DNA of 64,000 bases. It comes from Bacteroidota bacterium (GTDB taxonomy: Bacteria > Bacteroidota > Bacteroidia > NS11-12g > UBA955). The translations under genes and the position numbers were made by a program. Under the pieces are notes generated by a model. It made no database searches and was not told the origin of the DNA. It saw nothing but the letters and a program-made list of their open reading frames with translations. Location of the stretch: NCBI GenBank assembly GCA_027488835.1, contig JAIYAW010000001.1:124001-188000 (forward strand). Reading direction: 5' to 3'. This document shows, in pieces, positions 23,731-47,469 of this stretch. Numbering within the stretch: position 1 is the stretch's first letter; the number at the start of each line of letters is the position of its first letter.

Positions 23731-25032
23731 ATGAACAAAGAATATAAAATTGCAATTATTGGTTTGGGATATGTTGGACTACCCCTGGCTGTGGCTTTTG
23801 CTGAAAAGTATAAAGTGGTTGGTTTTGATATCAATTTGCAACGCATAGGTGAATTGAAAAAATACAACGACCGTACACTTGAAATTTCAAATGAACAATT
23901 GAAGGATGTAGTTATTTCAGATGAAAATTATGTAAGTGATAATTATTCAAACGGCTTGTACACAACCATGAATCAGTCTGATTTGGCTGATTGCAATTTT
24001 TTCATTGTTACAGTCCCAACTCCTACAGATAAATATAACCGTCCTGTGCTAACTCCTTTAATCAAAGCCAGTGAAACCGTAGGTAAGGTTTTGAAATCAG
24101 GAGATATTGTGGTGTATGAAAGTACGGTTTATCCCGGTGTTACCGAAGATGAATGTGTACCCGTACTTGAAAAAATAAGTGGATTAAAATTCAATACGGA
24201 TTTCTTTGCAGGATATTCTCCGGAGAGAATCAATCCGGGTGACAAAGAACATACGGTAACTAAAATTTTAAAGGTGACAAGTGGGAGCACTCCGGAAATT
24301 GCGACTGAAATTGATGCAGTTTATAACAGTGTCATTACTGCCGGAACCCACAAAGCGCCGAGTATCAAAGTTGCCGAGGCCGCAAAAGTGATAGAAAACA
24401 GTCAACGTGATATCAATATTGCCTTTGTAAATGAATTGGCTAAGATTTTCAATTTAATGGGAATAGATACCCATGATGTATTGGAAGCTGCGGGAACCAA
24501 ATGGAATTTCTTAAAATTTAAACCCGGTTTGGTTGGGGGACATTGTATTGGGGTTGATCCCTATTATTTGGCTCAAAAAGCACAAGAATTGGGTTACCAT
24601 CCTGAAATTATTTTGGCTGGGCGCAGATTGAATGATGAAATGGGAAAGTATGTGGCCACTGAAGTGATTAAATTGATGTTGAAAAAAGACATCAAAGTAA
24701 AAAATTCAAATGTGTTGGTTCTAGGTTTTACTTTCAAGGAAGATTGTCCCGATGTGCGTAATACCAAGGTAATTGATATTGTTAATGAACTGAAATCTTA
24801 TGCAGTAAAAGTAACAATTTTTGACCCTTGGGCAAACCCAGAAGAAGTAGAACATGAATATGGGGTAATTTCGCATAAAGATATGCCAAAAGAAAAGTAT
24901 GACGCAGTGATTTTGGCTGTTTCACACAAAGAGTTTTTGAAAATGAATTTGCAAAATTTACTAAATGACACAGCGGTATTTTACGATGTAAAAGGTTGTA
25001 TGGTTGGTGATTTTGTTGACTCTAGATTGTAA
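23731..25032 (+). CDS. UDP-N-acetylglucosamine 6-dehydrogenase (TviB/WbpO type)
   Basis: 433 aa. NAD-dependent four-electron oxidation of a UDP-HexNAc to its uronic acid. Seen: IAIIGLGYVGLPLAVAFAEK, VPTPTDKYNRPVLTPLIKAS, YESTVYPGVTEDECVPVLEK, YSPERINPGDKEH, catalytic Cys in VGGHCIGVDPYYL, and VLVLGFTFKEDCPDVRNTK. From memory these blocks track Salmonella TviB (Vi antigen) much more closely than WecC or Ugd. With the 4-epimerase at 55.6 kb it could give UDP-GalNAcA; the order of oxidation and epimerisation is not shown by sequence. Confidence 0.9.
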   Translation: MNKEYKIAIIGLGYVGLPLAVAFAEKYKVVGFDINLQRIGELKKYNDRTLEISNEQLKDVVISDENYVSDNYSNGLYTTMNQSDLADCNFFIVTVPTPTDKYNRPVLTPLIKASETVGKVLKSGDIVVYESTVYPGVTEDECVPVLEKISGLKFNTDFFAGYSPERINPGDKEHTVTKILKVTSGSTPEIATEIDAVYNSVITAGTHKAPSIKVAEAAKVIENSQRDINIAFVNELAKIFNLMGIDTHDVLEAAGTKWNFLKFKPGLVGGHCIGVDPYYLAQKAQELGYHPEIILAGRRLNDEMGKYVATEVIKLMLKKDIKVKNSNVLVLGFTFKEDCPDVRNTKVIDIVNELKSYAVKVTIFDPWANPEEVEHEYGVISHKDMPKEKYDAVILAVSHKEFLKMNLQNLLNDTAVFYDVKGCMVGDFVDSRL

Positions 25033-25037
25033 GTAAA

Positions 25038-26036
25038 TTGAAAATTCTAGTTACGGGTATAGCAGGATTTATTGGCTATCACTTAAGTAAGAAATTACTT
25101 GGTGAAGGATACGAAGTTATTGGTTTTGATAATTTGAATGATTATTATGATGTGCAACTCAAAATAGATCGATTAAAAGAGCTTAAAATCGAATTTGAAA
25201 ACAATTTATGGGTTTCTGAAAATCCCAATTTGAAATTTGTCAAGGCAGATCTTTTAGAAAAGGAAGTGCTCATGAATTTGTTCAATGTAGAAAAGTTTGA
25301 TTATGTTGTTCATTTGGCTGCGCAAGCAGGTGTTCGTTATTCGTTAACAGAACCTCAGAGATATATTGATTCGAATATAACTGGTTTTTTGAATATCTTA
25401 GAATGTTGTAGGCATTATCCGGTAAAGCATCTGGTATTTGCTAGTAGTTCATCGGTTTATGGTTTAAATGCTAAAATTCCATTCTCTGTTCACGATAGAA
25501 CAGATAGTCCTGTAAGTATTTATGCCGCCACTAAAAAAAGCAATGAACTTATGGCTCATACTTACAGCTGTTTATTTAAAATCCCAACAACAGGTTTGAG
25601 ATTTTTTACAGTTTATGGTCCTTGGGGAAGACCAGATATGGCAATGCATCTATTTACTGATGCCATCATTAACGAAAAACCAATAAAAGTGTTTAATCAT
25701 GGAAAATTAAGTCGTGATTTTACATTCATTGATGATATCGTTGAAAGTATTTATCGTATCATGTTAAAGCCGAGTATTGAAAGTGAATTGCCTTCAAACT
25801 TATTCAATATTGGAAATAATTCTCCAGAAAAACTTGGAGATTTTATTGAAACTATTGAAATGGCAATTGGTAAAAATGCCAAAAAAGAATTATTGCCAAT
25901 GCAGGATGGTGATGTAGAAAGAACGTATGCTGATGTGCAAAGTTTGATAGATTACATTGGTTATAAACCTCAAACTCCAATTCAGGACGGAATTACAAAC
26001 TTTGTAAATTGGTATAAAAATTATTATAAAATTTAA
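25038..26036 (+). CDS. UDP-glucuronate 4-epimerase-like SDR
   Basis: 332 aa, TTG start 5 nt after the dehydrogenase stop. Seen: LVTGIAGFIGYHLSKKLLGE, FDNLNDYYDVQLKIDRLKEL (the NDYYDxxLKxxRL block typical of UDP-glucuronate 4-epimerases), HLAAQAGVRYS, SSSSVYG and YAATKK (catalytic Tyr-Lys). Predicted to convert UDP-GlcA to UDP-GalA. A UDP-glucose dehydrogenase is not in the window, so UDP-GlcA would come from elsewhere, or the enzyme may accept the HexNAcA product of its neighbour. Confidence 0.85.
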   Translation: MKILVTGIAGFIGYHLSKKLLGEGYEVIGFDNLNDYYDVQLKIDRLKELKIEFENNLWVSENPNLKFVKADLLEKEVLMNLFNVEKFDYVVHLAAQAGVRYSLTEPQRYIDSNITGFLNILECCRHYPVKHLVFASSSSVYGLNAKIPFSVHDRTDSPVSIYAATKKSNELMAHTYSCLFKIPTTGLRFFTVYGPWGRPDMAMHLFTDAIINEKPIKVFNHGKLSRDFTFIDDIVESIYRIMLKPSIESELPSNLFNIGNNSPEKLGDFIETIEMAIGKNAKKELLPMQDGDVERTYADVQSLIDYIGYKPQTPIQDGITNFVNWYKNYYKI

Positions 26037-28951: not shown

Positions 28952-30115
28952 ATGATTGATAAAAAAATTTGCGTTTATTCTGGTGTATCACCTTCGACAA
29001 CTTTTATTGAAAGACTCATTGTTGGACTTTCAGAATCCAATAATCAGATTTTATTGGTTGGAAGAAAAAATAAGGAAATTGAATATAATTCTAATGTAAT
29101 AAATGCAACATATAAAAATGAGTTCATTCAGTTGCTGTTTATTTTGAAATATTATCTACCCCTACCTATTGAGCATAAGAGATTAGTACGTTCACAAATA
29201 AAATTCCGGTCATCATTAAAAGTAAAGCTAAAAAAATTATCAGAAATAAGTCTTGTGCTATTTCACAAACCAGATATTTTTCATATTCAATGGGCCAAAT
29301 CTATTGAAGAATGGATTTTTTTAAAAGAAGCTGGAATTAAAGTTATAGTAAGTTTGCGCGGTGCGCATATAAATTATTCACCAATTATTGATGAACATCT
29401 AGGGGAAATGTACAAAAATGTTTTTCCATCAGTGGATGGTTTTCATGGAGTTTCTCAAGCAATTATTGAAGAAGCTCGAAAGTATAATTTGAATACTTCC
29501 AATTGCAAAGTTGTATACAGTGGTTTAAAATTAGATAAATTTGAATACAAGAAAAAAATATTTAACCAAGGTAAAATAGATATTTTATCAATTGGTAGGG
29601 CACATTGGAAAAAGGCATATCCATTTGCAATTGATGTATTAAGTGAGTTTTTAAAATTCAATCCGAATATTCGTTATAAGATAATTGGTGGACATTCGGA
29701 AGAAACATTGTTTCAAACACAACAACTTAACGTCGAAAAAAACATTGAATTATTGGGTAATTTACCTTTTGAAGAAGTAAAATCAAACTTATATAAAGCA
29801 GATGTGCTTTTATTATCAAGCTATGAAGAAGGTATAGCCAATGTTGTATTAGAGGCAATGGCCTTCGGTGTTTTGGTAATTTCGAGTGATTGCGGTGGAA
29901 TGTCTGAAGTAATTGAGGATGGAGTAAACGGTTTTTTGTTTGAAAATCGATCAAAAGAAAGTTTGTTGTCAAAATTAATGTTGGTTTCTCAACTTAAAAA
30001 TGAAGAATATCAAAGAATCACGAAAAACGCAAGGCAAACAATTGAAGAAAGATTTACAGAAGGTAATATGGTAGATGGAATGTTGAATTTATATCATCAT
30101 ATACTAAGTTATTAA
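28952..30115 (+). CDS. Glycosyltransferase, GT4 type (1)
   Basis: 387 aa GT-B fold. N-terminal acceptor domain with HIQWAKSIEEWIFLKEAG and VSLRGAHINYSP, then the GT4 donor domain: LSIGRAHWKKAYPFAIDVLS, ELLGNLPFEEVKSNLYKADV, and the retaining ExxxxxxxE block YEEGIANVVLEAMAFG. Donor sugar unknown. Preceded by a 104-bp AT-rich gap, so it may start a new transcript. Confidence 0.85.
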   Translation: MIDKKICVYSGVSPSTTFIERLIVGLSESNNQILLVGRKNKEIEYNSNVINATYKNEFIQLLFILKYYLPLPIEHKRLVRSQIKFRSSLKVKLKKLSEISLVLFHKPDIFHIQWAKSIEEWIFLKEAGIKVIVSLRGAHINYSPIIDEHLGEMYKNVFPSVDGFHGVSQAIIEEARKYNLNTSNCKVVYSGLKLDKFEYKKKIFNQGKIDILSIGRAHWKKAYPFAIDVLSEFLKFNPNIRYKIIGGHSEETLFQTQQLNVEKNIELLGNLPFEEVKSNLYKADVLLLSSYEEGIANVVLEAMAFGVLVISSDCGGMSEVIEDGVNGFLFENRSKESLLSKLMLVSQLKNEEYQRITKNARQTIEERFTEGNMVDGMLNLYHHILSY

Positions 30116-30125
30116 TTTTTATAAT

Positions 30126-31496
30126 ATGAAAAAAATCGAAATACTTCCAATAAATACTGTATTTAATAATGAGAATAAAAATTTTTTGGACTATAAAGCC
30201 ATTTGTATATTTGCAGCAATAGGCTTTTTTCTAGATGACGATACTTATTATATAGATCATAAAACGCTGAAACCAGCCACCAATTATCAAATAATTAACA
30301 ATGAAATCGTTGATTCTAAACAATACTTTCATTGGAATTATAATCCCAGAGATATTAGCCTAAAACAGGCAACGGATGAATTTACTGAATTATTTGAATC
30401 TATTGTCAAGGAACAAATTGCGGGTAGGAAAGTTATTTTGCCTTTATCTGGCGGACTGGATAGTCGTACCCAAGCAGCTGCGCTTAAAAATATTGGTGCC
30501 GATGTAAATGCATATAGCTATAGCTTTTTAAATGGACATGATGAAACCAGATACAGTCAAAAAATAGCAGAAGTGTGTAATTTTCCATTTAAAAAATTTA
30601 CCATACAATCCGGGTATTTGTGGAATTGCATAGATCGTTTGGCAGAAATCAATCAGTGTTATTCTGAATTTACGCATCCCCGTCAAATGGCTTTTATTGA
30701 TGAATATATGCAAATGGGTGATGTTTTTTGTTTAGGTCACATGGGTGATCTTTTATTTGGTGATTTGGGTGTTCCTGATGATTTAACATTTGAAAAGCAA
30801 GTTGAGGTAGTTCTTAAAAAAATAATTAAAAAAGGCGGACAAGAATTGGCTGAATCACTTTGGTTTGAGTGGAGTTTAGAAGGAAATTTTATGGATTATT
30901 TGCGCGGCAGGGTAGTGAAGTTATTGGGGGAAATAGATATTCCTCACTCAGCAAATGCCAGAATACGCGCATTCAAGAGTATGTATTGGGTACCTCGTTG
31001 GACAAGTGTGAATTTATCTGTTTTTGAAAATGTAAAACCTATTGTATTGCCTTACTATGACAACCGTATGTGTGAATTTATTTGTACCATTCCAGAAAAG
31101 CATTTGGCCGGAAGGCAAATACAAATAGAATATTTAAAATTACGTGCACCGAAGTTGGCAGCAATCATGTGGCAAGATCAGAGGCCGTTTAATTTAAACA
31201 ATTATTATTTCAATAAATTTCCATATAATTTGCCGTTTAGGGTAATTGATAAAGCAAGGAGAAGTTTTAGTAAAAACCCTACAATTCAAAGAAATTGGGA
31301 ATTACAATTTATTGGAAAAGACAATAAATTACAATTGGAAGATAGAATTCTTCATAATTCAGAATTTTCAAAATTCATTTCTCCAAACTTGGTAGGTGGG
31401 TTTTATCAGAAATTTTTGAATGAAGATTCCGTGAAATATGCTCATTCGGTGTCTACACTATTGACTTTGAGCTTATTTTCAAATTTAAAAAAATGA
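30126..31496 (+). CDS. Asparagine-synthetase-like ATP-pyrophosphatase lacking the glutaminase
   Basis: 456 aa. PP-loop ATP-binding motif KVILPLSGGLDSRTQ at about residues 103-117, followed by the AsnB synthetase domain. The protein does not start MCG and has no Cys2 glutaminase; the first 75 residues (FAAIGFFLDDDTYYIDHKTL, then KPATNYQI) look like a remnant of its second half. Expected chemistry: adenylation of a carboxylate and attack by an amine or ammonia. In this locus a sugar-linked carboxylate is a likely substrate. A conventional AsnB-like enzyme is at 45.6-47.5 kb. Confidence 0.8.
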   Translation: MKKIEILPINTVFNNENKNFLDYKAICIFAAIGFFLDDDTYYIDHKTLKPATNYQIINNEIVDSKQYFHWNYNPRDISLKQATDEFTELFESIVKEQIAGRKVILPLSGGLDSRTQAAALKNIGADVNAYSYSFLNGHDETRYSQKIAEVCNFPFKKFTIQSGYLWNCIDRLAEINQCYSEFTHPRQMAFIDEYMQMGDVFCLGHMGDLLFGDLGVPDDLTFEKQVEVVLKKIIKKGGQELAESLWFEWSLEGNFMDYLRGRVVKLLGEIDIPHSANARIRAFKSMYWVPRWTSVNLSVFENVKPIVLPYYDNRMCEFICTIPEKHLAGRQIQIEYLKLRAPKLAAIMWQDQRPFNLNNYYFNKFPYNLPFRVIDKARRSFSKNPTIQRNWELQFIGKDNKLQLEDRILHNSEFSKFISPNLVGGFYQKFLNEDSVKYAHSVSTLLTLSLFSNLKK

Positions 31497-32647
31497 AAAT
31501 AGGAATTGTACTATCAAATCCGCCTGGTTATTCGGAAACATTTTTTGTAAATAAAATAAAGTTTTTAAAAGAGGCAGGATTTGAAGTTTATTTATTTGTT
31601 GATAAAGTTTCTTCAGAGAGCAATGAGAATTGTATTGTAGGTTATTCTCAGGGAAATGGATTTATTGAAGACGCTAGAAGAAAATTAATTACTTTTTTTA
31701 GATTATGCTTATCACCTGTTAAAGTATTTAATTTATTTAGTCAAAACCGTAAAGATGGATTGGGGCTAAGGCAAAATTTGATATCTATTTTTTCATCGAT
31801 ACATATTTTATCGTATAAATTAGATTGGTTACACTTTGGATTTGCAACAATGGCTATTAATCGCGAAAATGTTGCAAAGACCATTGGAGCCAAAATGGCT
31901 GTAAGTATTAGGGGTTACGACATTGCAATATACCCATTAAAATGTACGAATTGTTATGATTTGGTATGGGAAAAAATTGATAAATTGCATTTTATATCAG
32001 ATGATTTATTGCAATTAGCCATTGCAAATGGTTTTAGGGAAAGTATTTCACATATGAAAATTACCCCTGCTATAGACATTGAAAAATTTAAATATTCAGA
32101 ACACATTCAAAATAAGCTTTTGAGAATTACAACTGTTGCGAGACTAAATTGGAAAAAGGGCTTAGAATATACAATTGAGGCTTTAAGTTATCTTAAAAAA
32201 GGAGGAATTGATTTTGAATATTCTATCATAGGTGAAGGAAATGATTTTGAACGTTTGAAATTTGCAGCGCATCAATTGGATATTTTTAAAAATGTGAAAT
32301 TTTTAGGGAAAAAACGTCAAGAAGAAATCATTGAAATGTTAAAAACAACGGATATATATATTCAATATAGCATTCAAGAAGGATTTGGGAATAGTGTATT
32401 GGAAGCCCAGGCGATGGGCTGTATTTGCATTGTAAGTGATGCAGAAGGTCTAAGCGAAAATGTATTAGACGGTCTAACTGGATATGTAGTCAAAAAAAGA
32501 AAACCAGAATTACTATCCGAAAAAATAAAAGAAGTTATTCATTTGGAGAGGCAACTAAAATTAGAAATGATCTCTAACAGTGTATCTCGATTGAAGACCG
32601 AATTTAATTTGGAAGTTCAAAAACAAAGATTTATCGATTTTTATTAA
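31493..32647 (+). CDS. Glycosyltransferase, GT4 type (2)
   Basis: 384 aa, overlapping the previous stop (ATGA). GT-B: LHFGFATMAINRENVAKTIG, VSIRGYDIAIYP, then ITTVARLNWKKGLEYTIEAL, EYSIIGEGNDFERLKFAA and the ExxxxxxxE block IQEGFGNSVLEAQAMG. Donor and acceptor unknown. Confidence 0.86.
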   Translation: MKIGIVLSNPPGYSETFFVNKIKFLKEAGFEVYLFVDKVSSESNENCIVGYSQGNGFIEDARRKLITFFRLCLSPVKVFNLFSQNRKDGLGLRQNLISIFSSIHILSYKLDWLHFGFATMAINRENVAKTIGAKMAVSIRGYDIAIYPLKCTNCYDLVWEKIDKLHFISDDLLQLAIANGFRESISHMKITPAIDIEKFKYSEHIQNKLLRITTVARLNWKKGLEYTIEALSYLKKGGIDFEYSIIGEGNDFERLKFAAHQLDIFKNVKFLGKKRQEEIIEMLKTTDIYIQYSIQEGFGNSVLEAQAMGCICIVSDAEGLSENVLDGLTGYVVKKRKPELLSEKIKEVIHLERQLKLEMISNSVSRLKTEFNLEVQKQRFIDFY

Positions 32648-32648
32648 A

Positions 32649-33698
32649 ATGAAAATTTACATTCCTGATATTGACTATTCAAAATACAATAAAAGTGATT
32701 TATTTCCTGCGATTCGACCTTTTTTAAAAGAGAATAAAATAGGTAATTTTCCCGAACAATTAGAAAGATGGGGCATTCAAAATCAAATAATAAGTGTAGT
32801 TAATAAATGTGAATGTGATTTTATATTATATCCTTTGATTTTATTGAGTTCCGGTGCGGAAAGGAGAAAGTTTAAAGATTTCAGTGAATTTGCTAATAAA
32901 AATAATCACCATAAAATTATTATTTATATAAGTGGTGATTTTGGATTTGTTTATCCTAAAATTAGTAATGTCATATATTATAGGATGGGAGGTTTTAATT
33001 CACAACTAGATAGAAATAATCGAATATTTCCATTCTTATTATCTAATCATTTAAAAGGTATATTGAATTTGGATTCAATTATTGTTAGCGATAAAAAATT
33101 GAAACCTGTGATTGGTTTTTGTGGTCATGCGAGTGCTAATTTGCTTAAATTTATGTATGAAAATATTAAATATATGAATTTAAATATTAGACGTGTTTTG
33201 TATTTTAATTTCAATTTTGAAACATATTTTCCGTCAGCTTACAACAGAAAAAAAATCTTGGAAAATATAGAGAAAACGGATTTGACGGCACAAAATTTTA
33301 TCTTGAGAGAAAAATACAGAGGTGGGTTTGTTGATGAAATTACAAAAGCCAAATCAATAAGGGAATATTATCATAATATGATGGAATCCGATTATGTATT
33401 GTGTGTTCGAGGCGCTGGTAATTTTTCGGTTCGATTTTATGAAACTTTACATATGGGTAGAATTCCAGTTTTAATCGATACAGATTGTAAACTCCCGTTT
33501 GAAGATTTAATTAATTGGGATAATCATATTATTCGGATACCTTGGAAAAAAAGATACGAGTTAAATGAGATAGTGAGTTCTTTTCACAACAGTTTAAGTA
33601 ATGAACAATTTGAGAACTTACAAATTTCAAATAGAACTCTTTGGCAAAATTTGTTAAATTTAAATGGATTTTTTGTAGAATTAAAATCATTATGTTAG
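32649..33698 (+). CDS. Exostosin-like (GT47-type) glycosyltransferase candidate
   Basis: 349 aa, starting 1 nt after the previous stop. The C-terminal part reads YVLCVRGAGNFSVRFYETLH, then MGRIPVLIDTDCKLPFEDLI and WDNHIIRIPW, the pattern of the exostosin/GT47 donor domain (RGxGxxSxRxxEAxxxGxIPV). The N-terminal half is not recognised. An inverting transferase acting in the same glycan pathway is likely; donor unknown. Confidence 0.7.
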   Translation: MKIYIPDIDYSKYNKSDLFPAIRPFLKENKIGNFPEQLERWGIQNQIISVVNKCECDFILYPLILLSSGAERRKFKDFSEFANKNNHHKIIIYISGDFGFVYPKISNVIYYRMGGFNSQLDRNNRIFPFLLSNHLKGILNLDSIIVSDKKLKPVIGFCGHASANLLKFMYENIKYMNLNIRRVLYFNFNFETYFPSAYNRKKILENIEKTDLTAQNFILREKYRGGFVDEITKAKSIREYYHNMMESDYVLCVRGAGNFSVRFYETLHMGRIPVLIDTDCKLPFEDLINWDNHIIRIPWKKRYELNEIVSSFHNSLSNEQFENLQISNRTLWQNLLNLNGFFVELKSLC

Positions 33699-35017
33699 AT
33701 TTCATTAAGTATATTAGTCCTAACTGGTACTTTAATCGAAAAATAGCAAATATTCCTTATTTTGTTGATTATACAAGCTTAGATGGAGCAATTATCGAAA
33801 ATTGCAATGTGTATGCTGGTTATTCTAATGAAATTGCCCAAAAAATTGATATTGCATACCAGTTGTGGAGACTGGGATATATTTGTGTCGATTCGAATAA
33901 GGAATTGGTTTGGAATGCAAAAGACGTTTCATTAAAAGACAAGTACCTCTTTGTTAATAGATTTTACAAAAAACACCGCTCATTTTTGGTGTTGTTTTTC
34001 AGATTATTGGAATTAAACAATCCAATAAATGAACTTTTCTGTTTTATTAAAGCGCTAGGAATAAGTCAGACCAAATTAAATAATTATTTTCATCATGACA
34101 TAGATGCATCTTCGCATCTATTGTTGAATGAAAACCCATTGGTGAGTGTGATTATTCCAACTTTGAATCGATATCAATATTTAACTGATGTTCTTAAAGA
34201 TTTGGAGAAACAATCGTATAAAAATTTTGAAGTAATTGTTTTTGATCAAAGCGAGCCTTTTAATCAAGAATTTTATGAAAATTGGAATTTTGATTTAAAA
34301 GTAATTCACCAAGAAGAGAAAGCGCTGTGGTTGGCACGTAATTCTGCTATAAAAATGTCGAACGGTAGTTTAATCTTGCTGTATGATGATGATTCTTTAA
34401 TTGATGAAGATTGGATCAAAAATCATTTGAATTGTTTGGATTATTTCCAATGCGAAATTTCAAGTGGTGCGAGTATTTCAGTAGTTGGAGGCGAAGTGCC
34501 GAAACATTATTCATATTTTAGGTGGAGTGATCAAATTGATACTGGAAATGTAATGTTAAAACGAGCAGTATTTGAAAAGATTGGCTTGTTTGATCGTCAA
34601 TTTGAGGGTCAAAGAATGGGAGATGGGGAATTTGGATTGCGGGCATATTTAGCAGGTTTCAAAAACATTAGCAATCCACTTGCAAAAAGAATACATCTAA
34701 AAGTTTCTGAGGGTGGGCTAAGGCAAATGGGTTCATGGGATTCTTGGAGGCCCAAGAAATTTTTTGCACCAAGGCCAATTCCAAGTGTTTTATATTTAAT
34801 TAGAAAATATTTTGGCACTCAGGCCGCTATCAGAGAAATTATTATCTCTGTGTTACCCTCAATCGTACCCTATAAATTTAAAAGGAGTAAAAAATTAATG
34901 ATTTTTGGTGTTTTAGTTGGTTTTGTTTTAAGTCCGTTATTGTTAGTCTCGGTAATGAGAAGTTGGCGATTTTCATCCATAAAGCTTAAGCAAGGTTCGA
35001 AAATAGAATACTTATAA
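33692..35017 (+). CDS. Glycosyltransferase, GT2 type
   Basis: 441 aa from ATG at 33692, which overlaps the previous stop by 7 nt; an in-frame TTG 51 nt earlier lies deep in the previous gene and is less likely. N-terminal 140 residues are not recognised. Then a GT-A domain: LVSVIIPTLNRYQYLTDVLK, LARNSAIKMSNGSLILLYDD, DDSLIDEDW (DxD region), IGLFDRQFEGQRMGDGEFGL. C-terminal hydrophobic helix near residues 405-425 suggests membrane attachment. Confidence 0.85.
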   Translation: MLDFIKYISPNWYFNRKIANIPYFVDYTSLDGAIIENCNVYAGYSNEIAQKIDIAYQLWRLGYICVDSNKELVWNAKDVSLKDKYLFVNRFYKKHRSFLVLFFRLLELNNPINELFCFIKALGISQTKLNNYFHHDIDASSHLLLNENPLVSVIIPTLNRYQYLTDVLKDLEKQSYKNFEVIVFDQSEPFNQEFYENWNFDLKVIHQEEKALWLARNSAIKMSNGSLILLYDDDSLIDEDWIKNHLNCLDYFQCEISSGASISVVGGEVPKHYSYFRWSDQIDTGNVMLKRAVFEKIGLFDRQFEGQRMGDGEFGLRAYLAGFKNISNPLAKRIHLKVSEGGLRQMGSWDSWRPKKFFAPRPIPSVLYLIRKYFGTQAAIREIIISVLPSIVPYKFKRSKKLMIFGVLVGFVLSPLLLVSVMRSWRFSSIKLKQGSKIEYL

Positions 35018-35020
35018 ATA

Positions 35021-36118
35021 TTGAAAGATTCAATTCTAATTGTTACAACTGAATTTCCACCTCTGCCGGGTGGAATTGGGAACCATGCGTACAATTTGGC
35101 TAAAGAGTTTTCCAAAAATCATAAAAAAGTGATTGTTATTACAGAGGAAAGAGCCAATTCCAAAGTTGAGTGGAATAATTTTTATGATTCTGCCGAATTT
35201 GAAATAATAGGGGTTAAGCGTAATAAATTCATATTATATACATATTTGAAGAGAATGATTTTATTTCTATATTTTTCAATAAAATATAATCCCGTAACTT
35301 TTTTTTCAGGCAAATTTTCCATTTGGTTGGCAGCAATAAATCCATCTAAAAACGATTCATTTGCAATTATTCATGGGAGTGAAATCAAGTGTAAAGGTTT
35401 TTGGAAGAGAGTTTTCCATTCAGGACTTAATAAAGTTAAAAAAATTATTTCTGTTTCTAAATACACTCAGAATATATTATTGGGGAATTATAAATTAGAT
35501 GTAACAAAATGCGTTGTAATAAATAACGGGTTTAATTTTGAAAATAATGAATGTAATTCTAGAGCAAAAAAATTTGGTTCTCCTTTGGAGTTTATAACGG
35601 TAGGTGGCATGCATCAAAGAAAAGGCCAACATAATTTTATTCATGCACTTCCAAAAATAATATCTCGCTTTGGAGACGTTAGATATAACATTGCGGGTAT
35701 ACCACAGGAATTAGAACGGTTGAAAAAATTGGCAGAAAAGTTAAATGTATTAGATAATGTTATTTTTTATAATTGTCCGACAAATAGTGAAATTTTATTG
35801 GTATTAAAAAAATCGGATATATTTATCATGTTATCAGAAAATTTGGAAAACGGGGACTTTGAGGGATTTGGAATTGCTATCTTAGAGGCAATGTCAATGG
35901 GTTTGCCAGCAATAGGTTCAAAAAATACGGGTATTGAAGATGCCATTTCCAATCATTTTTCTGGTATTTTGGTAGACCATTCTAATGTGAATGAAATAAG
36001 TGATGCGGTGTTTGACATTCAACTTAATTATGATGAATATTCAGAAAGTGCGCGTTTGTGGAGTCAAAAATTTGCATGGGAGAAAGTCATCAAACAATAT
36101 CATGAATTATTAAAATGA
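35021..36118 (+). CDS. Glycosyltransferase, GT4 type (3)
   Basis: 365 aa, TTG start 3 nt after the previous stop. Glycine-rich acceptor loop VTTEFPPLPGGIGNHAYNLA, FAIIHGSEIKCKGFWKRVFH, VGGMHQRKGQHNFIHALPKI, and ENGDFEGFGIAILEAMSMGL with the two Glu of the GT4 motif. Donor unknown. Confidence 0.86.
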   Translation: MKDSILIVTTEFPPLPGGIGNHAYNLAKEFSKNHKKVIVITEERANSKVEWNNFYDSAEFEIIGVKRNKFILYTYLKRMILFLYFSIKYNPVTFFSGKFSIWLAAINPSKNDSFAIIHGSEIKCKGFWKRVFHSGLNKVKKIISVSKYTQNILLGNYKLDVTKCVVINNGFNFENNECNSRAKKFGSPLEFITVGGMHQRKGQHNFIHALPKIISRFGDVRYNIAGIPQELERLKKLAEKLNVLDNVIFYNCPTNSEILLVLKKSDIFIMLSENLENGDFEGFGIAILEAMSMGLPAIGSKNTGIEDAISNHFSGILVDHSNVNEISDAVFDIQLNYDEYSESARLWSQKFAWEKVIKQYHELLK

Positions 36119-37263
36119 AATTTGAAAAATTAGTGATCATTTCACATACAGAGCATTATTTAGATGAAACTGGTGTCCCAGTGGGTTGGGGTCCTACTGT
36201 GAATGAAATCAACTACTTAGCGGACTACTTTGAAGAAATAGTGCATATTGCATGTTTACATGTTGGTATCGCACCGCCAAGTTCAAATCCATATAAGAAT
36301 AAAAATATTAAGTTTGTTCCAATTCCGCCATTTGGTGGTCCAAGTTTAATTGATAAATTAAGCATCTTTTTTAAGTTACCTAAGATAATAAAAATTATAG
36401 CTGAACATATAGAAGGTACGTCCTATGTTCAATTGAGATTACCAACAGGTATTGGTGTATTTTTATTGCCATACTTCGCTTGGTTCAGAAAGCGTAATTT
36501 TACATTTTGGGTAAAATATGCGGGTAATTGGGCTGAGAATAATCCACCAATGGGTTATAGATTTCAAAGATGGTTTTTGATAAAGAATTTTGCAAAATGC
36601 AAAGTAACCATGAATGGTTTTTGGCCAAACCAACCTGAAAATTGTATTTCATTTGAGAACCCTTGTTTAACAATGGAGCAAATTGAAAGTGGTGGTATCA
36701 TAGCAAAGAATAAAGTATTTACCAAGCCATATCGTTTTGTATTTGTTGGGAGATTGGAAGATGCAAAGGGAGTACAGAGGATTATTGATTCTTTTAAATC
36801 CGTTAACCTAGATTTAGTGGAATCGATAGATTTTATTGGCAATGGAGAAAGGCTAAGTCATTATAAAGGTGAATCAATATATTTGCGAGATAAAGTTCAT
36901 TTTCATGGATTTTTACCAAGTGAAAAAGTCCATGAAATTTTGGGTAAAGCACATTTTTTCTTATTGCCGAGTGCTTCAGAAGGTTTTCCGAAAGTGATTG
37001 CTGAAGCTGCTTGTTATGGCACAATTCCGATTGTGTCTAATGTTGGTAGTATTTCACACTATATTTCAAACAAAAATGGATTTATATGTGATGCAAAAAA
37101 ATTAGAACAAGAGCTTAAACATGCGCTTCTCAATGTAACCAATCAGGAAAACTATAATTTGGAAAAACTATCAACTGAAGTAATATGCGTTGCTGAAAAG
37201 TTCACATTTGAGAATTATTTATTGATGCTCAGATCTTATATTTTGGTGAATCAAAAAAAATAG
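36115..37263 (+). CDS. Glycosyltransferase, GT4 type (4)
   Basis: 382 aa, overlapping the previous stop (ATGA). VISHTEHYLDETGVPVGWGP at the N-terminus is unusual but shared by a subgroup of Bacteroidota GT4 enzymes. Donor domain: RFVFVGRLEDAKGVQRIIDS, DKVHFHGFLPSEKVHEILGK, SASEGFPKVIAEAACYG. Donor unknown. Confidence 0.84.
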   Translation: MKFEKLVIISHTEHYLDETGVPVGWGPTVNEINYLADYFEEIVHIACLHVGIAPPSSNPYKNKNIKFVPIPPFGGPSLIDKLSIFFKLPKIIKIIAEHIEGTSYVQLRLPTGIGVFLLPYFAWFRKRNFTFWVKYAGNWAENNPPMGYRFQRWFLIKNFAKCKVTMNGFWPNQPENCISFENPCLTMEQIESGGIIAKNKVFTKPYRFVFVGRLEDAKGVQRIIDSFKSVNLDLVESIDFIGNGERLSHYKGESIYLRDKVHFHGFLPSEKVHEILGKAHFFLLPSASEGFPKVIAEAACYGTIPIVSNVGSISHYISNKNGFICDAKKLEQELKHALLNVTNQENYNLEKLSTEVICVAEKFTFENYLLMLRSYILVNQKK

Positions 37264-37298: not shown

Positions 37299-38669
37299 AT
37301 GATAAACTGGTTACTGTCATCTTCTAAAAATAAGCAGCAATTAATATTTCATATTCTATTGGGGTGGGTTTCATTATTTACACCGTTTTTGTTTATTCTT
37401 TGGTATTATGCAATATTTATTGTTTTTTTTCAACAAATAACAAAACAAAAATCCCCAAATTCTACTTTTTATATTTTAATATTTTTAATGTACAGTTCTT
37501 CCTTCGAGATATTGGGGAGAATGGTAAAGGCTAGTCCATATGTTCCTTACGAATTGGGTAAATATGTAACTTTCATTTTAATTGTAATAGGATTGTTCAA
37601 ATCTAAAAAGGTGGGAACAACTGGAATGGTAATCTTTTTATTTTTGTTGCCCAGTATTTTGCTTGGTCTTACATATTATTCTTCATATAAAGACATGATA
37701 TTTAATGTATTGGGTATTGTAAATATTGCTTTGGGTATTGCTTTGTTTGCATATCAAAAAATTACAACAAAGCAATTACTATTTTTGTTACGGTTATTGG
37801 TTTTACCGTTAACTTCAATTTTGGCTTATTCTATAATTAGGTCGCCAAATTTTGAGGATGTAACATTTGAATTGGGCGCCAATAATTTGGTTGGTGGTTT
37901 TGGTTCTAATCAAATAGCAACAATTTTTGGAATTGCTTTTTTTGTACTTTATTTATTATATAATAAAAATATTCCATTTTCTGGATTTTCTAAGTGGTTT
38001 GATATATTAATAATAATTTTATTCCTGATTTATGGGCTATTAACATTTTCAAGAGGAGGGATGTTGGCTGGTTTTTTAGGTGTTTTTTTTCTTATATATT
38101 TTCAATTAATAGCTTCAAAAAAAATAGTAAATCTTTTATATGCGATTTTAGCTGTATCTATTTTTGGTATTGCACTATATGGAGTGAATGAAATAACAGA
38201 TGGAAATTTGTTATTGAGATATTCCGGAGAAACACATGGAACAATAGTTGGATCAAAAGAGAAGGATTTAAATCAATTGACATCTGGAAGATCTGAAATA
38301 TTTTTTGAAGATTTAGATCTTTTTAATGACAATATTTTCCTAGGAGTAGGCGTAAGTCAGTCTGTATATAAGAGAAACAATACAATAGGTACAAGTACAC
38401 ACGTTGAGTTTAGCAGATTATTGTCGGAACATGGTTTATTCGGTCTTTTGATCTGTATCATTTTTATATATTTATTGGTTATTGGCTTTATAAACGGTTA
38501 TAAATCATTTTTCAACAGTGTCATTTTTATTTTGTACTTCATTGGTTTTTTCACAACATTTCATGCTGCTACAAGAACTTTTGTAAGTCCTTTATTTATG
38601 CCATTTATTGTGATAGGACAATTATCTCGAAACGAATATGTAGAAAAGAACAAAAAATTGGATTCCTGA
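37299..38669 (+). CDS. O-antigen polymerase/ligase-like membrane protein
   Basis: 456 aa with about eleven membrane segments. The O-antigen ligase family block LLTFSRGGMLAGFLGVFFLI, and a large periplasmic loop (about 300-365) with LTSGRSEIFFEDLDLFNDNI, FLGVGVSQSV and STHVEFSRLLSEHGLFGLL, are visible. Could be the Wzy polymerase that joins repeat units or a WaaL-like ligase to lipid A core. Sequence does not decide, and the ABC exporter in the locus makes ligase plausible. Confidence 0.85.
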   Translation: MINWLLSSSKNKQQLIFHILLGWVSLFTPFLFILWYYAIFIVFFQQITKQKSPNSTFYILIFLMYSSSFEILGRMVKASPYVPYELGKYVTFILIVIGLFKSKKVGTTGMVIFLFLLPSILLGLTYYSSYKDMIFNVLGIVNIALGIALFAYQKITTKQLLFLLRLLVLPLTSILAYSIIRSPNFEDVTFELGANNLVGGFGSNQIATIFGIAFFVLYLLYNKNIPFSGFSKWFDILIIILFLIYGLLTFSRGGMLAGFLGVFFLIYFQLIASKKIVNLLYAILAVSIFGIALYGVNEITDGNLLLRYSGETHGTIVGSKEKDLNQLTSGRSEIFFEDLDLFNDNIFLGVGVSQSVYKRNNTIGTSTHVEFSRLLSEHGLFGLLICIIFIYLLVIGFINGYKSFFNSVIFILYFIGFFTTFHAATRTFVSPLFMPFIVIGQLSRNEYVEKNKKLDS

Positions 38670-38751: not shown

Positions 38752-40050
38752 ATGAACTGGATATTTAGATTTACTTTAACTTTAAGTGGCTTTCCAATCA
38801 GGAAGGCACAATTGGAATTTGAATCAAGAGATAAAGTTTCTAAAACTCAAAAAGCGTTTGATAATTTTAGATTTCATGACATGAACAATTTATTTTATCG
38901 CAGTTTTCTAGATTCAAATAATAGACAAAAAATTCAAAATTGGATTGATATCCCCGTAATTAGGAAACAAGATTTTCAGATAAATATTGATGAAATTATT
39001 TCCAAAGGATTAAAAAAATCGGTATTGCATGTTCATAATACTTCTGGATCTACTGGCACTCCCTTTTATTTTGCCAAAGACAAGTTTTGTCATGCTATGA
39101 ATTGGGCTGAAACAGATTATCATTTGTTAAAGCATGGCATTAACGTTGGAGCATCCAAACAAGCGAGGTTTTATGGAATTCCTTTACGTGGTATCAAGTA
39201 TTATAAAGAACGTTTGAAGGATTTTTTGGCAAATCGGGTTAGATTTCCAGTTTTTGATTTGTCCGATGAAAAATTGAATTTAGTCCTAAATCAGTTTAAA
39301 CAAAAGAAATTTGAATACATCAATGGTTACACCAGTTCATTGGTCATTTTTGCTAAATTTTTAATTGAAAGAAATATTATATTGAAAGATATTTGTCCCT
39401 CATTGCGGGTAGTTTTTCCAACTTCCGAAGTGGTTGATGATATTGATCGCAATATTATGGAACGAGGGTTTGGTGTGAGAGTAAGAAACGAATACGGGGC
39501 TGCGGAATTGGATATTTTGGCTTTTGAAGATGAGGATGGTGATTTTGTGTTAAATGAAGAAACTCTCTTCATCGAAATCTTGGATGAAAACAATCTTCCC
39601 GTAGAAGCAGGAGTTGAGGGAAAAGTAATCGTTACATCATTATATAACAAGGCAATGCCGTTTATTCGTTATGAGTTGGGCGACAGGGCGATATTGACTG
39701 ATAGAATCAAAAATGGGAACCGAGTTTTAGAAAAGGTTGTTGGCAGAACAAATGATATAATAAAACTTCCAAGCGGTAAAATATCACCCGGTTTGACATT
39801 TTATTACATCTCAAAGAAATTATTGGAATCTGGCGGGAGAATTAAAGAGTTTATCATTATTCAGAAAACAATAGATACGTTTTTATTTAAATATGTTTCG
39901 AATGAAGCCTTAACAGACTCGGAGAAATTTGAAATTCAAAAAGCGATGGATTTGTATTTAGAACGTGGATTGATTTGTAATTTTTTACGAAGTGATAAAA
40001 TAGAAAGAACCAAAGCTGGTAAATTGAAACATTTTTTTTCTGAGATTTAG
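38752..40050 (+). CDS. CapK-like adenylate-forming enzyme (phenylacetate-CoA ligase family)
   Basis: 432 aa. ATP-binding motif VHNTSGSTGTPFYFAKDKF at about residues 99-117, RNEYGAAELDILAFEDEDGD, IRYELGDRA, and the C-terminal lid KAGKLKHFF. This branch of PaaK-like enzymes is frequent in capsule and exopolysaccharide loci (CapK), where its substrate is generally not known. It could activate a carboxylic acid, for example an amino or hydroxy acid, for attachment to the glycan. The next gene begins with GTG directly after its stop. Confidence 0.85.
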   Translation: MNWIFRFTLTLSGFPIRKAQLEFESRDKVSKTQKAFDNFRFHDMNNLFYRSFLDSNNRQKIQNWIDIPVIRKQDFQINIDEIISKGLKKSVLHVHNTSGSTGTPFYFAKDKFCHAMNWAETDYHLLKHGINVGASKQARFYGIPLRGIKYYKERLKDFLANRVRFPVFDLSDEKLNLVLNQFKQKKFEYINGYTSSLVIFAKFLIERNIILKDICPSLRVVFPTSEVVDDIDRNIMERGFGVRVRNEYGAAELDILAFEDEDGDFVLNEETLFIEILDENNLPVEAGVEGKVIVTSLYNKAMPFIRYELGDRAILTDRIKNGNRVLEKVVGRTNDIIKLPSGKISPGLTFYYISKKLLESGGRIKEFIIIQKTIDTFLFKYVSNEALTDSEKFEIQKAMDLYLERGLICNFLRSDKIERTKAGKLKHFFSEI

Positions 40051-45615: not shown

Positions 45616-47469
45616 TTAATTGTTATTTTGAAAATACTTTTCGTACCAAAGGCTTAAAAAGAAAATTTGTCTAACAAAGGCATAGTTATCTTTTTTGCCA
45701 TTTTTAAAATCATTCATCAATTGAACAACATCAATTTGGCTCATGTTTCCTATTTTGAAAAAATCAGACAAATGCATTTTGTCGAAATGATCTCTAAAAT
45801 AAGGTTGATTCAGCATGATATGATCCCAGGGAATGCTTAACCCAATTTTTCTATGATTGGTGATATATTCTGGTAATTTTTTACCAATTGAATTCATTAA
45901 AATCTGTTTTCCTTTTCCTTTCGTAGTGAAATATTCATCTTGTAGGCTAAATGCGCCTTCAACAATTCTGTAATCTTCAAAAGGTTCTCTGTTTTCAATA
46001 GAAGCACCCATACTCACACGGTCATTTCTGTCGTTAAGAGTAGCAATATGTGTAAATTGTTCCATATACATCAATTGACGCAATGGATTATTGGGAAAAT
46101 AAGTTTCCGCTTCTTTTAGAATTTCTAGCCTGTAGCTTGGTAATAAGTTGAATCCACCAATATTGTTTTCTTCCAAATCTTTGATATACAAATTGTTTGC
46201 GTTCATCATAATTTGAGAAGATTGATTTTTGGTGTATAAATACTTTTGCATTTTACGCCAACGTTCGTCTTTGATGTATTTTGTTGGTATGTAAATAAGT
46301 AATTGTAATATGTTGTAGCGCAATTGATTGCCATGTACTTTGTACCGCACATAACCTCCAAATATTTCATCGGCAGCTTCTCCACTTAATAAAACAGAAA
46401 CATCTTTTTTTGCTTCTTTCGACAATCCAAGCAAATGAGGCTCTTGAACATGCATAAACGGTTCATCAGAATAGTAGATGGCCTCTTCGGTGAGTGTCGC
46501 TAGCTGATCACCCGTAAATTCAAAGCTATGAAAATCGAGTCCCAATTCTTTTGTATATCTGGCAGCAATCTTCGATTCATCGTGTTTAGAATCTTGAAAA
46601 GCGATGTTCCATGTGCTAATATTTTTATAACCCAATTTGTTTTGGGCATAAATCACTGAACTGGAATCTAGGCCTCCACTTAGCATGGTGCCCACTTTTA
46701 CATCGGATACCATTCTGTAGTTTACACTGCTTAAAAAAGTTTCTTCAAACCATTGGTATGGTTTTTCTATTGAGGGATATTTTTTCGCTTTTTCACCGAG
46801 ATGGTACCATCTGGAAGTTTGGGTAATTTGTCCCTCCGAATTTACGATCATATAATATCCAGGAAGAATTCTTTTAATTCCCTTGAATATGGTATTTTCA
46901 CCACTTACATGTCTGTAAAAGAACAATTCATCAATATGCGATTCATCAACGGCTTTTTCAATTCCATAAGCAAAGAAAGCTTTGGGTTCTGAAGCGAATG
47001 CAAACTCTGTTTTTGTTTGAGCGTAGAAAAGGGGTTTGATACCCATTCTGTCTCTAACCAAAAGTGTGGTTTTTTCTTGATGGTCGTAAAAAGCAAACGC
47101 CCAGAATCCTATTAATTTATCAAGGCAACGAATACCTTCATGGATAAGGAGTTGTAAAAGGACTTCAGTATCAGATTCTGTTTGGAAATGGAATCCATTC
47201 TGAATGAGGTCTGTTTTTATTTCTTGGTAATTAAAAATTTCACCGTTAAAAGTGAGTGTATAGCGTTTGCAATTAGAGTGAAATGGTTGATTTGCATTGC
47301 TTGAGAGGTCAATTATGCTTAATCGTCTGTGTCCAAATCCAATATGTTCGTCAATGTAAATGCCTGCTGCATCTGGACCTCGGTGTACCAATGAATCTCT
47401 CATTATGATGAGTTTTTCAGGATTGATTGGTATTTGATTCTTATTTATGATTCCAACGATTCCGCACAT
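45616..47469 (-). CDS. asnB: Glutamine-hydrolysing asparagine synthetase-like amidotransferase
   Basis: 617 aa. Complete two-domain enzyme: MCGIVGI with the glutaminase nucleophile Cys2, LVHRGPDAAGIYIDEHIGFG, FNGEIFNYQEIK, then the synthetase PP-loop KVGTMLSGGLDSSSVIYAQ. Makes asparagine from aspartate and glutamine, or in O-antigen loci amidates uronic acids (WbpS-type). Position between a glycosyltransferase and the locus end, on a transcript with that glycosyltransferase, favours the second role; the sequence alone cannot decide. Confidence 0.88.
   Translation of the reverse strand: MCGIVGIINKNQIPINPEKLIIMRDSLVHRGPDAAGIYIDEHIGFGHRRLSIIDLSSNANQPFHSNCKRYTLTFNGEIFNYQEIKTDLIQNGFHFQTESDTEVLLQLLIHEGIRCLDKLIGFWAFAFYDHQEKTTLLVRDRMGIKPLFYAQTKTEFAFASEPKAFFAYGIEKAVDESHIDELFFYRHVSGENTIFKGIKRILPGYYMIVNSEGQITQTSRWYHLGEKAKKYPSIEKPYQWFEETFLSSVNYRMVSDVKVGTMLSGGLDSSSVIYAQNKLGYKNISTWNIAFQDSKHDESKIAARYTKELGLDFHSFEFTGDQLATLTEEAIYYSDEPFMHVQEPHLLGLSKEAKKDVSVLLSGEAADEIFGGYVRYKVHGNQLRYNILQLLIYIPTKYIKDERWRKMQKYLYTKNQSSQIMMNANNLYIKDLEENNIGGFNLLPSYRLEILKEAETYFPNNPLRQLMYMEQFTHIATLNDRNDRVSMGASIENREPFEDYRIVEGAFSLQDEYFTTKGKGKQILMNSIGKKLPEYITNHRKIGLSIPWDHIMLNQPYFRDHFDKMHLSDFFKIGNMSQIDVVQLMNDFKNGKKDNYAFVRQIFFLSLWYEKYFQNNN

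Follow-up and report, generated by a model that had tools for sequence, protein, structure and literature searches.

Among the described systems closest to the locus studied here are the asparagine synthetases AsnB/ASNS (TIGR01536/PF00733), whose synthetase fold and PP-loop SGGLDS are shared by a GATase-less protein encoded in the window, i.e. the whole 64,000-nucleotide stretch of DNA that was analysed (homologous residues ~13-220, 98.7% probability). AsnB/ASNS have a glutaminase domain with Cys2, a glutamate where the GATase-less protein has His205, the KxGF lysine and an S-x-E-x-R-x-P motif, all of which differ or are missing in the latter, and their loop reads SGGLDSS rather than SGGLDSR. 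CarA and beta-lactam synthetase match it in structure but keep the N-terminal domain, and CarA has Tyr345 in place of His205. The hydroxyamidotransferase TsnB9, with 623 aa and a Met-Cys-Gly start, is only ~10% identical to it, and acts in what we take to be the trichostatin pathway, a different setting. Haloarchaeal plasmid proteins named 'asparagine synthase-related protein' (e.g. WP_227380444.1) share the SGGxDSR loop and the lack of a Met-Cys start (2 of 5 matches read), but they are 592-656 aa long, ~23% identical, and by eye keep a glutaminase-like N-terminal half. To our knowledge, the enzymes that make amino-acid or amine amide decorations on uronic acids of surface polysaccharides are largely unassigned. 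The WbpS/WbqG/XrtA-system amidotransferases (TIGR03108, uronamide formation) are of the same class as the GATase-less protein and likewise lie in polysaccharide clusters, but are of full length and glutamine-dependent; PMC7468200 describes uronamide formation by WbpS in P. gingivalis, a member of the same phylum. Single-domain NAD synthetase is also a PP-loop amide synthetase without a glutaminase domain, and uses ammonia in vivo, according to PMC3376133. However, it belongs to another family and its single domain is thought to be ancestral, whereas in the present protein the loss is secondary.

A short synthetase-class protein and its relatives

The gene of the GATase-less protein (30126..31496, + strand) has an ATG start and encodes 456 aa, with the SGGLDS loop at residues 108-113 (SGGLDSR, 108-114) and a GHxGD loop at 204-208. 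PF00733 (Asn_synthase) was the sole Pfam domain match (30.2 bits, gathering cut-off 21, residues 86-214). TIGR01536 matched residues 16-172 with model positions 171-327 of 517 at 41.7 bits, and thus did not reach its equivalog cut-off of 267.1; since the alignment begins at model position 171, the protein lacks the first ~170 positions, where the glutaminase domain and its Cys2 lie. It does not open with Met-Cys and contains no MCG among residues 1-60, and neither a Cys after the start nor MCG in this stretch was found in any of the 81 members of the family alignment described below. TIGR03108 (cut-off 816.9 bits) and the lasso peptide cyclase model NF033535 (cut-off 525 bits) gave no match to the protein at E<=0.001, with weak matches in 75/81 and 5/81 members, respectively. 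The family thus lies below the cut-off of every curated model searched, its matches being to models made for other families, and naming by homology would give asparagine synthase. Word searches of an open-access library found no paper on it.

When 84,980 species genomes were searched with alignment A1, 333 relatives came up; the best 80 were kept, so that the remaining 253 are not described by this set. These best 80 are all of the short form, 50-62% identical to the window protein and with a median length of 462 aa, and together with it make up the 81-row alignment A3; their hosts are for the most part Bacteroidota, Flavobacteriia among them, and three records belong to Ignavibacteria. Because 80 relatives have the same length, the short form is beyond chance. 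The sequence-only reading, which had taken the protein for an asparagine-synthetase-like one without glutaminase, with SGGLDS intact and Cys2 absent, is borne out, the same form recurring throughout this set. Truncation by a frameshift or a mis-called start was ruled out: the upstream gene stops at 30115, leaving 10 bases before the ATG at 30126, and the frame is open for just 18 bases 5' of the ATG, which leaves no room for a concealed N-terminal half, in keeping with the short form of the 80 relatives. A decayed copy was likewise ruled out by these relatives and by 50 invariant positions. Close relatives are scattered: in a set of 70 genomes from the same family, none was found outside the own genome (9 others gave short partial matches at E<=0.001), among 108 genomes of the order 3 besides the own have one, and among 395 genomes of the phylum 12 matched at E<=1e-8. 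Besides the own genome, these 12 comprise 6 with a close match (48-61% identical), 2 with one at 30% identity and 3 with weak matches. The protein thus represents an uncharacterised, GATase-less offshoot of a known class that is strongly associated with a pathway.

The AlphaFold2 model built with A3 (81 rows) has a mean pLDDT of 95.8 and a pTM of 0.93. In VIA-align the best match listed was TsnB9 (7ylz; Z 24.8, 387 residues aligned, 2.9 A), followed by CarA (1q15/1q19; 20.9), human ASNS (20.2), beta-lactam synthetase (19.1) and AsnB (17.1), while other PP-loop enzymes (NAD and GMP synthetases) gave Z ~11-12. The predicted fold therefore agrees with TsnB9, carbapenam synthetase and asparagine synthetase across the synthetase domain. 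The first residue of the model aligns at residues 116-138 of the matched proteins (134 in E. coli AsnB, 116 in CarA), so that the N-terminal ~75 residues correspond to the stretch where the glutaminase region ends and the junction follows, without the nucleophile layer. For the 'residual half domain' of the sequence-only reading, a more fitting description is therefore the final ~75 residues of the junction between glutaminase and synthetase.

In three distant relatives, L021 and L022 (~590 aa) and L149 (593 aa), the second half of the glutaminase fold is retained (paralogue positions 118-377, 98.2%), but Met-Cys is absent. In a maximum likelihood tree of 50 synthetase parts, including 17 of the 81 rows of A3, the short form makes a single group (90/83) with these three as its neighbours (100/99). 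Next out stands one SGGLDSR protein without Met-Cys, and 29 Met-Cys-Gly paralogues lie opposite (100/99). As judged from these sequences, loss of the glutaminase appears ancestral for the short form, with the three half-domain relatives without Cys2 as its sister group, and their placing makes it probable that Cys2 disappeared before the half domain did. The family would thus show that an enzyme of the asparagine-synthetase class can lose first the activity of its glutaminase and then the domain itself, with the synthetase site still under strong constraint.

Kept and altered residues of the synthetase site

Among the residues identical in all 81 members are S108, G109, G110, D112, S113, R114, E140, R186, Q187, G204, H205, G207, D208, K284, K376, N390 and E392. 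Of the 50 invariant positions in A3, 30 are kept in L021, L022 and L149 as well, among them S108-G110, D112-R114, E140, R186, Q187, D208, K284, K376, N390 and E392. Both a profile comparison with full-length paralogues (98.7% probability) and a joint alignment placed GHxGD over S-G-E/D-x-x-D, whereby Asp208 corresponds to Asp-367 of ASNS and Asp-351 of AsnB, His205 to Glu-364 and Val/Leu209 to Glu-368 of ASNS. The position of E. coli 348/human 364 is thus His in 81/81 members of the short form and Asp or Glu in 32/33 full-length paralogues. His205 was aligned by phmmer with Tyr345 of CarA, presumably part of the catalytic dyad of that enzyme. It was considered as a universal new base, which is weakened by L149, where the position is Leu; L021 and L022 have His. 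The kinship with beta-lactam synthetase chemistry suggested in the sequence-only reading gains no specific tie, the Tyr345 position being His here. The interpretation given in that reading is thus supported in part, UDP-HexNAcA as the acceptor and the amine being candidates only.

The essential lysine of AsnB lies in the KxGF motif and is, we assume, Lys-449, the counterpart of Lys-466 in human ASNS. In the C-terminal regions of the 81 members KxGF was not found (0/81); the string 'K.GF' has 18 occurrences, spread over 17 members and all N-terminal to residue 240, and a lysine stands at the aligned AsnB 449 position in 4/81, in a region where the alignment is uncertain. By comparison, KxG[FL] is present in 33/33 full-length paralogues, and the S-x-E-x-R-x-P motif in 30/33 of them and 0/81 of the short form. 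According to PMC6748925, the E364A, E364Q and D367A variants of human ASNS showed no activity with ammonium chloride, and AS-B cannot do without Lys-466. The residue pattern points to an enzyme with a rebuilt acceptor site rather than to decay, in which Lys284 or Lys376 may stand in for the lost KxGF lysine.

A conserved glycan gene neighbourhood

The gene lies among glycosyltransferases, as the sequence-only reading had it, with GT4 genes directly on both sides. Upstream is a GT4 glycosyltransferase that clusters with GT4a (28952..30115, +; PF00534, 115 bits), and downstream GT4a itself (31493..32647, +; PF00534), found in 76/80 related loci. The 'overlapping starts' of the earlier reading were right only for the downstream side, where a 4-base ATGA (31493-31496) joins the stop of the GATase-less gene to the start of GT4a; upstream there is the 10-base gap. 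The downstream gene starts before the stop in 42 of the 80 loci that have a same-strand downstream gene (window counted). There follow, all on the + strand, EXO (32649..33698; PF03016; 31/80 related loci), GT2c (33689..35017 from an ATG start, the listed ORF beginning with TTG at 33641; PF00535; 62/80), GT4d (35021..36118; 41/80), GT4e (36115..37263; 43/80) and a Wzy/ligase-like membrane protein (37299..38669; PF04932, 42 bits; homologues in 18/80 loci at one search threshold). EXO, a bacterial exostosin/GT47-like glycosyltransferase that recurs in related loci, also matches the RXYLT1 C-terminal domain (RXYLT1_C). In the same cluster, at 38752-40050 (+), lies a PaaK/CapK-like adenylate-forming protein that has no Pfam match at 0.001 and weak NCBIfam matches below cut-off (FlxY, PaaK). 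A UDP-sugar dehydrogenase (23731..25032, +; PF03721/PF00984/PF03720), which would supply uronic acid, and an NAD-dependent sugar epimerase (25038..26036, +; PF01370, 184.7 bits) lie 4-6 kb upstream.

Clustering of 1,414 ORFs around the 81 loci gave the recurrent gene order GT4b, GATase-less gene, GT4a, (GT4a), EXO, GT2c, GT4d, GT4e, Wzy. Among the 55 of 80 related loci with full 10-kb flanks, GT4a was present in 55, GT4b in 53, GT2c in 52, GT4e in 35, GT4d in 34, EXO in 26 and Wzy in 22; the window cassette has GT4a twice, EXO, GT2c, GT4d and GT4e, and no GT4b under the cluster rule. Further neighbours of the relatives are sulfotransferases, methyltransferases, acyltransferases and additional glycosyltransferases. 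Conserved hexosaminuronic-acid genes were not found in the flanks of the 80 related loci (dehydrogenase 1/80, epimerase type 6/80), nor was a gene for an unusual amine fixed among the neighbourhood clusters.

The association also holds across genomes. In the phylum sample of 395 genomes, the GATase-less gene (E<=1e-50) was found in 9 and GT2c (E<=1e-30) in 10, namely the same 9 and G195, while GT4a (E<=1e-40) was found in 8, all with the GATase-less gene (hypergeometric 1.7e-17 for GT2c and 6.6e-16 for GT4a, values that ignore kinship and linkage). In the class sample, which overlaps that of the phylum, GT2c (E<=1e-60) was found in 13/395 genomes, and 11 of the 13 have the GATase-less gene or a distant form, the exceptions being G195 and G786. 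In G516, G679 and G739 the gene and GT2c are on separate contigs, and the stretches read around the former held no GT2c; since both are present though unlinked, the link is not merely physical. The gene therefore belongs to a conserved glycan pathway of Bacteroidota, presumably for a surface glycan, in which it is passed on together with GT4a, GT4b and GT2c, and its association marks these three as one pathway. In G516 the gene (L160 10590-11993) stands alone, and in G739 (L161 14055-15458) with two GT4a genes only, in both cases away from any larger glycan cluster. In the place that the GATase-less gene would take, G195 has a full-length Met-Cys-Gly synthetase (L130 7578-9434), directly before a GT4a-like gene and GT2c. 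G786 has GT4a, EXO, GT2c, GT4d and GT4e, yet its genome encodes no PF00733 protein, so the amide step would be dispensable or replaceable. In the two GT2c genomes without the GATase-less gene, the same cluster presumably holds NeuB/NeuC-like genes, named by eye from motifs (L157, L159).

Candidate reactions and nitrogen source

We tentatively favour, with somewhat less than even confidence, an active ATP-dependent amide synthetase of a surface-glycan pathway that activates a sugar carboxylate by adenylation and joins it with free ammonia, giving a uronamide. A uronic or hexosaminuronic acid, as such or in lipid-linked or nucleotide form, would be converted to an acyl-AMP, a step proposed because the PP-loop and Asp208 are conserved, and free cytosolic ammonia would then attack the acyl-AMP; the product would be like that of the glutamine-dependent WbpS, and the use of ammonia like that of single-domain NAD synthetase. 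In the window, the upstream UDP-sugar dehydrogenase and epimerase could supply the uronic acid. The kept PP-loop and magnesium/pyrophosphate Asp positions, together with the family's own invariant acceptor-site residues, count for this reading, as do the fold, the joint inheritance with the glycosyltransferases and the full-length synthetase in the cassette of G195; against it count the KxGF lysine without a counterpart, the His at the Glu-364 position, the cassette of G786 without a PF00733 protein, and the UDP-sugar dehydrogenase found in 1/80 related loci, while the replacement in G195 was met once only, and loci of this kind often hold a full-length synthetase. That a long-lived clade has lost the glutaminase layer and has no partner fixed beside it would also suit an enzyme that couples the sugar carboxylate with an amino acid, another amine or an amino sugar, using a base different from that of asparagine synthetase. 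Such an enzyme is conceivable, if not probable: the invariant His (81/81) at the CarA Tyr345/ASNS Glu364 position agrees with it, and TsnB9, the closest fold among solved structures, bears the name of a hydroxyamidotransferase, so that the fold accepts nitrogen sources besides ammonia, but the identity to TsnB9 is only ~10%, the His is Leu in L149 and the neighbourhood holds no fixed gene for an unusual amine. In the specific form of a ligase that makes an amide bond between a uronic acid in the surface polysaccharide and an amino acid or another amine, we consider it rather unlikely; it would mean that an asparagine-synthetase-class enzyme has shifted from glutamine-fed amidation to condensation with an external amine. 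With its substrate found, the protein would extend the known tools of surface-glycan chemistry, be it by a uronamide synthetase that depends on ammonia or by a ligase for amino acids and uronic acids.

Whether nitrogen could be delivered by a partner glutaminase depends on the paralogues. The window has a full-length one with an intact Met-Cys-Gly glutaminase start (45616..47469, - strand; TIGR01536, 403 bits against the cut-off of 267.1), 14 kb away, and the own genome has three in all. The class II glutaminase profile matched in 25/80 loci within 10 kb, nearly always in such a full-length paralogue (26/80 by clustering), and the HisH-type query in 0/80. The sequence-only reading had raised a glutaminase supplied in trans in all relatives; within 10 kb, a full-length glutaminase paralogue was present in 19/55 full-flank loci and absent from 36/55, so no partner glutaminase is fixed, and the paralogues keep complete synthetase sites themselves. 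Pairing with a glutaminase in trans, such as a nearby full-length paralogue, is accordingly quite improbable, though a more distant supply may exist given the three paralogues of the own genome, and the nitrogen source is presumably free ammonia or an external amine. A role as scaffold or regulator of the glycosyltransferases, with no catalysis of its own, would fit the loss of the Lys-449 equivalent and of S-x-E-x-R-x-P, as well as the direct overlap of its gene with GT4a, but a dead site would have no need of a PP-loop and GHxGD Asp that are invariant in 81/81 and kept in distant relatives, and we consider this unlikely. An ammonia-dependent asparagine synthetase, which the shared fold and PP-loop would allow, is highly improbable: two of the three acidic ASNS residues around aspartate, Glu-364 and Glu-368, are His and Val/Leu, the E364A and E364Q results cited above speak against activity with ammonium chloride, and the glycosyltransferase partners are fixed. 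With the key Glu changed to His and the KxGF lysine motif gone in 81/81, plain asparagine synthesis is unlikely, in line with the earlier view.

Four full-length paralogues near members of the short form (L036, L040, L043 and L045) have a PP-loop reading SSGxDS instead of SGGxDS. A split enzyme formed with one of them as a complementary paralogue was considered and rejected, their other synthetase motifs being intact, unlike those of glutaminase-only partners.
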